A DNA stretch of 64,000 bases from Desulfuromonadales bacterium (lineage in GTDB: Bacteria > Desulfobacterota > Desulfuromonadia > Desulfuromonadales > Geopsychrobacteraceae). The DNA is taken from positions 1-64,000 of the forward strand of contig JAHYIY010000003.1 of the NCBI GenBank assembly GCA_019429255.1, given 5' to 3'. Under the pieces are notes generated by a model. That model was not told the DNA's origin and did no database searches. It saw only the letters and a list, made by a program, of their open reading frames with translations. This document shows, piece after piece, positions 30,533 to 56,355 of the stretch. The position numbers and the translations under genes are program-made. Each line of letters opens with the position of its first letter. The first letter of the stretch is position 1.

Positions 30533-30655
30533 CAAAAACACCGTAAAACTTGCCCCTTTTACCATGCTAAAAGTACAAAGGCAAGAAAAAAACAGTTAAA
30601 ATCATAATACAGAAGACAGGAGTCAGGAGGGATATAACTTCTATCTTCTGTATTC

Positions 30656-30811
30656 GTAACTGTTCAGTACTGTCCTTGCGCAGGGCCTTTGGTTCCTGTG
30701 GCAAGGGTGTTTGTCGCCATAGATGGCGACAACAAGCGGTCAGGGATGACCCAACGGGAAACAATCGCGTCCCTTGACATAGGATCCGAAGATCCGGTGC
30801 TGAACAGATGC
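30656..30811. mobile_element. miniature element, family A, copy 1
   Basis: A 156-bp element with 17-base imperfect terminal inverted repeats (GTAACTGTTCAGTACTG left; GCATCTGTTCAGCACCG on the minus strand at the right end) flanked by the perfect 8-bp direct repeat CTGTATTC (30648-30655 and 30812-30819). The right repeat includes two bases of the trmJ stop codon. Internal palindromes include TTGTCGCC-ATAGAT-GGCGACAA and GGATC-CGAA-GATCC. It has no credible gene. Near-identical sequence occurs at 56142-56295 and 52713-52855. Confidence 0.8.
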
Positions 30812-30817
30812 CTGTAT

Positions 30818-31582
30818 TCAAGCTTTTACTCCCTGCCTTTGCGTCTTTTTACCACAGGCGATATCGATCTGATTGAACATGCCACGCAGGATTCTGACCT
30901 CGCGTTCATTGAGTCCGGCGCGGCCAAAAATACGGCGATAGGTACGCATGATATGATCGGGGTTTTGGGGGTTGAGATAGTCGATATGCAGGAGTGTTTC
31001 TGTCATGTGCCGGTAGAGGGATTCGAGTTGCTGGTTGTCTGCCAGTTTTTTTCGTCCGTGCTGTTGTCCCGCGATCTCCCCCGCCCTTTTGTAGATTTCA
31101 TATAGACAAACAACGACAGCTTGCGCCAGATTCATCGATGGCAGTCGGGCGTCGGTCGGAATCGTAACAAAGTGCTGACACAGATCCAGCTCGGAGGTGA
31201 ATAGCCCTTTATCCTCACGGCCAAAAACCAGGGCGCAGACACCAGCAGAATCGATAGTGAGAATCAGATTGGCGGCCTCGTCAGGATGCAGCATCCCCTC
31301 ACGATAGCGTCCGAAACGGCGCGTTGTGCCGACACTTAATGAGCAGTCAGCCAGGGCTTCCGGCAAAGACGAGTAGATTGTCGCCCGCTCGAGCAGGTCA
31401 GCGGCCTTGACCGCCATATTGCGAGCTTCGCGCCCAAGATGATCGACCTGCGGATTGACCAGGCGTAGATCGTGCGCTCCATAATTGTACATGGCACGAC
31501 AGACGGAGCCGATATTGCCGGCCCCTTGTGGTTCTACCAATACGATGGCCGGGCAATTTTTGTACTTATTCTGGTCTGTCAT
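30818..31582 (-). CDS. tRNA/rRNA methyltransferase, TrmJ-like SPOUT family
   Basis: A 254-residue SPOUT methyltransferase with VLVEPQGAGNIGSVCRAMYN, LVFGREDKGLF and the knot segment SMNLAQAVVVCLYEIY. The family makes 2'-O-methyl groups, TrmJ at position 32 of tRNAs. The C-terminal helical extension is typical of TrmJ. Its start overlaps the HolC-like gene by 17 bases. The stop codon abuts the miniature element at 30656-30811. Confidence 0.9.
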   Translation of the reverse strand: MTDQNKYKNCPAIVLVEPQGAGNIGSVCRAMYNYGAHDLRLVNPQVDHLGREARNMAVKAADLLERATIYSSLPEALADCSLSVGTTRRFGRYREGMLHPDEAANLILTIDSAGVCALVFGREDKGLFTSELDLCQHFVTIPTDARLPSMNLAQAVVVCLYEIYKRAGEIAGQQHGRKKLADNQQLESLYRHMTETLLHIDYLNPQNPDHIMRTYRRIFGRAGLNEREVRILRGMFNQIDIACGKKTQRQGVKA

Positions 31583-52712: not shown

Positions 52713-52855
52713 GTAGCTATGCAGCTCTATCCTTGCGCAGGGTCGGGAGTCCTTTGGCAAGGGTTTTTGTCGCCATGGACGGCGACAAAAAGCGGTCATG
52801 AATGACGAAAAGCGTCCCTTGACATAGGATTCCGGACCCGGTGCTGAACAGAATT
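52713..52855. mobile_element. miniature element, family A, copy 2 (decayed), between glnB and glnA
   Basis: A 143-bp relative of the elements at 30656 and 56142: shares TATCCTTGCGCAGGGTCG, TTTGTCGCC-ATGGAC-GGCGACAAA, and CGTCCCTTGACATAGGAT with CCGGTGCTGAACAG at the right end. It has small internal deletions, and its left terminal repeat is degraded (GTAGCTATGCAG); no target duplication is visible. It is transcribed as part of the glnB-glnA leader region if the two genes are cotranscribed. Confidence 0.75.
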
Positions 52856-52890
52856 ACTCTGATGGATCCTGTGGGTAGATAGATCAATAA

Positions 52891-56072: not shown

Positions 56073-56141
56073 TATGACTCCTTCATTGTCAGTATGTTGC
56101 AACCAAGATTTTAGAGGGTTTTTAAAATGGGATTAGTAATG

Positions 56142-56295
56142 TAACTATTCACCACTATCCTTGCGCAGGGTCGCTGCTCCTGTGGCAAGGGTGTTTGTCG
56201 CCATGGACAGCGACACCAAGCGGTCATGGATGACCCAACGGGAAACAATCGCGTCCCTTGACATAGGATCCGAAGAGCCGGTGCTGAACAGATAC
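56142..56295. mobile_element. miniature element, family A, copy 3
   Basis: A 154-bp element with the same ends as copy 1 (left GTAACTATTCACCACTA; right CCGGTGCTGAACAGATAC). It is flanked by TTAGTAAT (56134-56141) and ATAGTAAT (56296-56303), an 8-base direct repeat matching at seven positions. Internal palindromes TGTCGCC-ATGGAC-AGCGACA and GGTCATGGATGACC are kept. Located between the lysA-like gene and the antiporter gene. Confidence 0.8.
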
Positions 56296-56355
56296 ATAGT
56301 AATTTATTAAAATCAGTCATATTCAATGATGTGTCAAGGGGGACTGTCTGGTTTT

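Follow-up and report, generated by a model that had tools for sequence, protein, structure and literature searches.

The window, a 64,000-nucleotide stretch of a draft genome of the Desulfuromonadales (G000), carries three copies of a non-autonomous MITE: the element has terminal inverted repeats (TIRs) and target duplications, occurs in high copy number, is mobile and is too short to encode a transposase. Its ends are those of single-ORF insertion sequences of the ISBst12 group of IS66, and relatives of the host possess empty sites. Its interior forms a three-way junction whose pairing covaries across genera, with a wobble asymmetry between the strands and with hairpins and loop GGA conserved at the level of lineages. 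We consider it probable that the MITE is mobilised by IS66 and carries a CsrA-binding RNA as its cargo, a reading for which we infer the transposase, transcription, binding of CsrA and a benefit to the element. What this analysis adds is the assignment of the ends to the IS66/ISBst12 type, an RNA with a three-way junction and wobble on one strand, the resemblance of this RNA to TwoAYGGAY, and the observation that individual copies are under no clear constraint; no description of an IS66 MITE with such an RNA was recognised in the accessible parts of the open-licence PMC literature.

Copies in the window and in the genome

A preliminary description of the window had proposed a mobile repeat with a perfect 8-bp target duplication at the trmJ stop codon. 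For copy 1 this is correct in all parts: the duplicated bases are identical in 8 of 8 positions on both sides, and the right duplication reaches into the stop codon (Table 1). The TIRs described for this copy were recovered as well, but the four internal hairpins are better described as a long outer stem that encloses a pair of hairpins. The two further copies are real, with revised ends, and the imperfect duplication reported for copy 3 is found as stated. Copy 2 is damaged at its distal end; its orthologue in the same-genus genome G003 retains TTATTTGT/TTATTTAT, its duplication still matching in 7/8 positions. In copy 1, the GGA in the loop of hairpin P2 is lost (AGA instead), and the distal half of the 3' arm of the outer stem P1 pairs only partly, as judged by eye. 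The TrmJ protein encoded next to copy 1 is 84-88% identical to its counterparts in Pelovirga terrestris and in the MAG records M55B183 and CSSed162cmB_563, which would place the genome in the Pelovirga group of the Desulfuromonadales.

Table 1 Element copies, their parts and the abutting gene in the window.
Feature	Position	Strand	Remark
Left 8-bp target duplication, copy 1	30648..30655	.	CTGTATTC, 8/8
Element copy 1, 156-bp subtype	30656..30811	+	156 bp; + is the strand with the GGA loops
Left TIR, copy 1	30656..30667	+	GTAACTGTTCAG, IS66/ISBst12-type end
P1 outer stem 5' arm, copy 1	30683..30707	+	By homology with alignment A3; letters checked
Hairpin P2, copy 1	30711..30732	+	TTGTCGCC-ATAGAT-GGCGACAA; family consensus
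Hairpin P3, copy 1	30738..30751	+	GGTC-AGGGAT-GACC; ANGGAY loop intact; family consensus
P1 outer stem 3' arm, copy 1	30771..30795	+	By homology with alignment A3; letters checked
Right TIR, copy 1	30800..30811	+	CTGAACAGATGC
Right 8-bp target duplication, copy 1	30812..30819	.	CTGTATTC; two bases belong to the trmJ stop codon
trmJ, abuts insertion of copy 1	30818..31582	-	SpoU methylase family (Pfam); name trmJ from the preliminary description
Element copy 2, 144-bp subtype	52713..52857	+	Flanked by glnA and the P-II gene; damaged at the distal end
Left target duplication, copy 3	56133..56140	.	TTAGTAAT
Element copy 3, 156-bp subtype, itself 155 bp	56141..56295	+	
Right target duplication, copy 3	56296..56303	.	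ATAGTAAT, 7/8 versus left

The suggestion of a MITE-like family was borne out by a genome-wide search, by the flanking 8-mers and by empty sites in relatives. The covariance-model search of the 2.74-Mb genome returned at least 150 places, of which at least 147 remained after removal of three that overlap. In a DNA search, the best 40 of 167 candidates scored as matches, and an exact two-block pattern yielded 36 matches (18 forward, 18 reverse), with none in either direction for the reversed control. There are two full-length subtypes of approximately 156 and 144 bp, and full copies range from 143 to 156 bp. Contigs C8, C19, C35, C43, C44 and C55 all start or stop within a copy; because the repeat breaks the assembly in this way, the number of copies given here is a minimum.

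Both ends are recognisable in 106 of the 150 places listed, the three overlapping ones included. Exact 8-bp target duplications flank 53 of these two-ended copies, with 0.08 expected when left flanks are matched with the right flanks of other copies, and 72 are duplicated in at least 7 of 8 positions (0.46 expected by the same procedure). The length of the exact duplication is 8 bp in 53 copies, 7 in two, 9 in two and 5 in one, and the duplications of the 72 copies consist of A+T to 74%, compared with 52% in the flanks. REP/RAYT elements are hairpin repeats without target duplication and have a linked Y1 (RAYT) transposase gene; the element described here departs from that type in having target duplications. 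An empty site corresponding to copy 1 is present in the three closest named records, where the trmJ-rimP gap runs through without interruption. G003 also carries copy 2, whereas G001 and G002, two genomes of the same genus, lack it and provide its empty sites.

Further arrangements were noted in the same genome. A tandem array (L147, G000:C13:2773-3248) consists of three elements of both subtypes, each following an identical 8-mer, AAATAATG, which is absent after the last element. It looks as if later copies had entered the duplication of the first copy or as if tandem circles had been inserted. Four loci, L138 (G000:C37:21341), L143 (G000:C44:14721), L144 (G000:C45:101325) and L133 (G000:C14:66569), have the left end GTAACTRTTCA and a right end agreeing in 10-11 of 12 positions, with 8, 6, 7 and 6 of 8 duplicated bases, respectively; their interiors are quite different and found no match in Rfam. 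The same transposase would appear to have mobilised a series of short, mutually unrelated cargos. Finally, L135 (G000:C23:26138) and L137 (G000:C37:1173) are remnants of 57 and 58 bp with both ends and an interior that is nearly gone; L135 retains the exact 8-bp duplication AGATCAAC, while L137 has none.

Distribution, ends and candidate transposases

With the full model, the element was detected in 16 of 41 genomes. Copies number at least 73 in each of G002 and G003, 61 in G022, 55 in G006, 45 in G037, which belongs to another family, 22 in G008, 21 in G019, nine in G001 and one to four in eight others. Two copies each were read in G006, G008, G019 and G022, all with IS66-type ends and 7 or 8 of 8 bases duplicated, and one copy each in G001 and G037 has a 7/8 duplication. 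In G013, G018 and G023 the ends are recognisable and the duplication does not match, the copies in G017 and G024 are worn, and IS66-type ends are absent from the core elements of G011, G015 and (by eye) G304. The core model matched three of 297 genomes of the phylum when the best 13 candidates per genome were scored, a setting in which a missing match counts for little. In 25 TrmJ loci (233 kb), no match to the full model was obtained, and blastn gave no match to the element in phages and plasmids. Exact patterns returned 0, 1 and 0 matches among viral contigs. The single match, in the viral contig IMGVR_UViG_3300035491_000319 (L295:1019-1083), is a TwoAYGGAY-like double hairpin that reaches 39.2 bits with RF01731 (cut-off 43).

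Geobacter uraniireducens is kin to the host of the element. Its Chunjie MITE is likewise present in multiple copies with TIRs and direct repeats but differs in its length of 235 bp, as given in the accessible part of the report (PMC10969869). Related repeats could also be contained in the supplements on multicopy sequences of Geobacter metallireducens and Pelobacter carbinolicus, to judge from the accessible parts of these papers (PMC2700814, PMC3543383).

The ends of the MITE, GTAACTRTTCAG, together with the 8-bp duplication match single-ORF IS66 insertion sequences of the ISBst12 group. This assignment is made because the ends and duplications of an insertion sequence in G008, of plasmid-borne relatives and of ISDge4 agree. 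A search for the IS66 DDE domain (PF03050) gave matches in nine of the 41 genomes and none in the draft of G000. The same-family genome G008 contains an intact element of 1723 bp, whose ends, GTAACTATTCAG, are identical in 12 of 12 positions and whose target bases are duplicated in 6 of 8. It encodes one transposase of 472 amino acids (NF033517, 287.7 bits; PF03050). A transposase with the same ends, as the preliminary description had envisaged, therefore exists within the family, but none was found within the genus: the G008 protein is missing from the drafts of G000 to G003, and no IS66 transposase with MITE-type ends was encountered in the drafts of the genus, that of the window included. 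G001 and G003 carry other IS66 genes; the ends in G001 differ (GTAAGCGTTCC), and no ends were found for the gene in G003.

Relatives of the G008 transposase on plasmids were represented by seven of 181 matching records and include proteins annotated as ISGka4 and ISGst1. Five of the seven (Paraburkholderia, ISGka4, ISGst1, Chlorohelix and Planococcus) have GTAAC-type ends and an 8/8 target duplication. The Oceanisphaera relative has the same type of ends with 2 of 8 target bases duplicated, so that ends of this type occur in six of the seven relatives as well as in G008; no ends were found for the Halomonas relative, which matches over 402 of 472 residues only. The name ISGka4 is used here as in the plasmid record (pHTA426). 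According to the accessible part of PMC8024623, this plasmid has one IS66 element of the ISBst12 group and ISGka4 there designates another element, belonging to ISLre2. The Geobacillus plasmid elements ISGka4 and ISGst1 share the ends GTAACTATTCAG(C) and the 8-bp target duplication with the MITE. ISDge4 of Deinococcus geothermalis, also of the ISBst12 group, has similar ends (GTGACTACTCAGCA / GTAACTGCTCAGCA), an 8-bp repeat and a single gene for a transposase of 449 amino acids, as described in the accessible part of PMC12898284. The MITE differs from these insertion sequences in its length of 144-156 bp, in the absence of a transposase gene and in that the bases in common are confined to the approximately 12-13 terminal ones. 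A single-ORF transposase of the ISBst12 group would thus move the MITE in trans into AT-rich targets, creating the 8-bp duplication; the genus may no longer possess this helper, or the helper may act from an unsampled source.

Predicted RNA fold and its likeness to TwoAYGGAY RNA

The interior of the element is a three-way junction made up of a 22-pair outer stem (P1) and two hairpins of eight (P2) and three (P3) pairs. Alignment A3, on which this fold is based, contains 24 cores from the own and foreign genomes; of 21 distant elements, L081 and L093 were excluded from A3, and L081 was excluded from alignment A4. Across the 24 sequences, 92.7% of the pairing cells are occupied by pairs, as compared with 78.2% after shuffling and at most 49.4% after sliding, and 20 of 33 pairs show double-sided changes. 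The covariation score of 0.457 is far above the values for shuffled (0.174, sd 0.012) and slid alignments (at most 0.104). The arms of P1 differ in sequence between genera and their complementarity is kept: for the distant elements, the mean duplex energy of an element's own arms is -36.1 kcal/mol versus -22.5 kcal/mol for swapped arms, own arms being better in 20 of 21 cases with L081 as the sole exception. Within G000, the 147 copies were reduced to 126 full ones by dropping the 21 that have at least 25 gaps, and the motif filter for the arm test removed 71 of these. For the 55 copies kept, own arms gave -19.6 versus -17.8 for swapped ones (sd 0.65), and four of 2000 permutations reached the own value.

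G-U pairs outnumber A-C mismatches by 43 to 8 in the 23-sequence core alignment, with 18 sequences leaning to G-U, one to A-C, two tied and two showing neither. Because G-U exceeds A-C on this strand and the relation is reversed on the other, selection probably acted on the fold as RNA of the plus strand, i.e., the strand with the GGA loops. Note that p-values for the wobble asymmetry as well as for the association with csrA given below are too small because the sequences share ancestry. Minimum free energy folds of L077, L080, L081 and L088 lack a simple junction by eye. A different fold, in which CTTGCGCAGG pairs with CCTGTGGCAAG, was returned by RNAalifold for the G000 copies alone. This fold and the one with the long outer stem are mutually exclusive; it was rejected, as none of its 41 pairs shows a double change and the cross-genus alignment favours the outer stem. 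In the window (30672-30707), an alternative fold is possible in which CCTTGCGCAGG, located 5' of P1, takes the place of the 3' arm and pairs with the P1 5' arm; judged by eye, CCTTGCGCAGG is missing from the other-genus elements that were read.

The consensus loops of the own family are ATGGAC and ATGGAT, and the hairpins thus carry ANGGAY loops. Both loops retain GGA in 110 of the 126 full G000 copies, and the two GGAs are spaced by 20 nt in 96 of 105 measured copies. The distant elements have GGA in 21 of 21 P2 loops and 20 of 21 P3 loops, as read by eye. Within the loops, GGA is less variable than N and Y. In elements of the G008/G019/G022 type, the P2 loop consists of five bases without a leading A and departs from the canonical ANGGAN hexaloop.

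Two hairpins with AYGGAY-type loops, an outer stem poorly conserved in sequence and a CAAG linker are features that the element has in common with TwoAYGGAY RNA (RF01731), the P2 loop of the G008/G019/G022 type being the deviation already mentioned. The element differs in that the RNA lies inside a transposon, P3 is shorter and scores stay below 43 bits. The best RF01731 score in G000 is 42.2 bits, the gathering score of 43 bits being reached in none of the 41 genomes. At E ≤ 0.01, matches were obtained in five of the 41 genomes, all with the element, and in none of 14 control genomes. Copies from G037, G001 and G011 scored 37.5, 36.2 and 35.9 bits, and those from G006, G008, G019 and G022 found no match. 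For the G037 copy (L087), MIR1883 attains a better E-value (0.0021) than TwoAYGGAY (0.0057) and is also far below its own cut-off. Since this unrelated miRNA model obtains the better E-value, part of the RF01731-type score is due to the long stem alone. We therefore describe the element RNA as resembling TwoAYGGAY RNA and do not assign it to RF01731. The accessible part of the original report places TwoAYGGAY RNA in human gut samples, gamma-Proteobacteria and Clostridiales (PMC2864571).

TwoAYGGAY RNA has been proposed to bind CsrA since both of its loops match the CsrA site (PMC4333381, accessible part). CsrA sites are ANGGAN hexaloops, and sites 10-63 nt apart can be bridged (accessible part of PMC7652899); loops and spacing in G000 agree with this description, and P2 of the G008/G019/G022 type does not. 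The CsrA-titrating sRNAs CsrB, RsmY and RsmZ, as far as accessible sources describe them, likewise have GGA in hairpin loops and at least two sites at bridging distance. Unlike them, the element offers two sites only per RNA, exists in many mobile copies and is known from its sequence alone. A csrA gene is present in G000. It was found in 12 of 16 element-bearing and 8 of 25 other genomes (p = 0.011, uncorrected for kinship), the corresponding numbers within the family being 11 of 15 and 4 of 10 (p = 0.12). In four of the 16 element-bearing genomes, all drafts and two of them of the same genus, csrA was not detected. By analogy, binding of CsrA would be the most likely mechanism: the cargo would be a short plus-strand RNA in which P1 closes the junction with P2 and P3 and presents ANGGAY-type loops, and the two GGAs approximately 20 nt apart would bind one CsrA dimer across both loops, as proposed for TwoAYGGAY.

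Selection on the element and its possible role

Divergence between copies amounts to 2-4% in the hairpin stems and GGA (8% for stems in the most distant pairs) and to at most 12% in the linker, and reaches up to 21-40% in the arms, the TIRs and the N and Y positions of the loops. Differences between nearest neighbours are also lower in the hairpins (stems 45/2318, GGA 17/606, P1 231/4827), a caveat to an inference of neutral decay that we read as lineage-level change in the arms. In five of six cuts, by comparison, the core or hairpins showed no significant depletion of rare changes relative to the arms. Among the at least 147 copies, singletons were more frequent in the core (36/5637 versus 35/8961 in the arms, p = 0.04) and bases found in up to three copies gave p = 0.61. 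For 87 TIR-ascertained copies, the respective results were 35/3331 versus 44/5385 (p = 0.30) and p = 0.18, and for 56 copies with target duplications they were p = 0.50 and, as the only cut with a significantly lower core, 28/2173 versus 75/3499 (p = 0.019). Singletons are undercounted in variable columns, a bias that favours the arms and hence the result of neutral decay.

The element could be a common IS66-type MITE with passive inner hairpins, either carried over from the source or aiding replication or transposition as a foldback, with an RNA that is read by no protein. The single copies without clear selection, the lack of any preferred strand or position with respect to predicted genes and the occurrence of the same ends with other interiors in G000 are all in keeping with such an element. 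A passive palindrome is, however, not expected to show the strand-asymmetric wobble between lineages, nor to conserve GGA while the N and Y of the loops vary, and we regard this explanation as rather unlikely.

Another explanation sees in the element a portable cis-regulatory part, i.e., a terminator, an mRNA stabiliser or a CsrA site for adjoining genes. It would fit the strong predicted folds and the location of the copies, 135 of the 147 listed overlapping predicted genes by no more than 60 bp, if at all, with a median distance of 37 bp to the nearest gene end. The G-U excess in the outer stem of the G000 copies (23 versus 8 A-C in the five junction-adjacent pairs) would suit it as well. 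Over all 24 P1 pairs the ratio is 274 to 76, where two G-U pairs stand already in the consensus and changes shared by subfamilies are included; the excess is attributed to these shared changes. In the hairpin stems of the G000 copies, G-U (9 in P2, 4 in P3) is not in excess of A-C (13 and 8; 13 versus 21 in total). Orientation speaks against a regulatory part: according to a simple in-house gene predictor, 35 of the 147 listed copies lie in sense, 42 in antisense, 29 between divergent and 19 between convergent genes, with 22 unassigned, and there is no strand bias (35 versus 42, p = 0.49). The common orientation of the three window copies, correctly described before, is therefore not a genome-wide rule. 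The cores also lack clear purifying selection after insertion, and this is the main limit on any regulation of neighbouring genes copy by copy. Taken together, we hold a cis-regulatory part to be improbable. Least probable is a DNA cruciform or single-stranded hairpin read during transposition, for which REP/RAYT and attC are the models and in which covariation would stem from repair of the DNA palindrome: it has in its favour that the arms are long, nearly perfect palindromes with a different sequence in different genomes and that the cores of G011, G015 and G304 are without IS66 ends, yet 8-bp duplications and IS66 ends indicate a DDE transposase, and cruciforms and palindrome repair are strand-symmetric in the face of a G-U to A-C ratio of 43:8, an argument that does not reach one-strand DNA processes.

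This leaves the IS66-mobilised MITE with a CsrA-binding RNA cargo as the preferred reading. Since the hairpins are conserved, changes confined to a few copies show no clear constraint and no orientation is preferred, the RNA would matter for the spreading lineages and not for the landing sites. We lean to the view that the fold is kept in source lineages and not at insertion sites, as the pattern of sequence change seems to suggest. The earlier idea of an RNA structure can accordingly be upheld at the level of source lineages, but its action in transcripts finds no support at the insertion sites, where neither a strand bias nor a clear constraint on the hairpins is seen. Source copies would titrate CsrA, and most dispersed copies would be decaying passengers. 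We tentatively propose, as one possibility among several, that a transposon family spreads a CsrA-titrating RNA and thereby binding sites for a global regulator, and that this RNA is kept functional by selection in those copies which go on to spread, but not in the rest.

The element connects a structured RNA similar to an orphan motif with one particular type of mobile DNA. More than 100 copies together with cross-genus relatives form a natural alignment in which the predicted fold, its strand and both loops can be tested. The conservation in lineages, set against a weak or absent constraint on single copies, shows how the needs of the mobile element can be told apart from retention by the host. 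If CsrA binds, a transposon would reach into a global post-transcriptional network. If the proposal is true, the TwoAYGGAY-like RNA of the Desulfuromonadales would be the RNA of a mobile element, and other TwoAYGGAY RNAs may be so, too.
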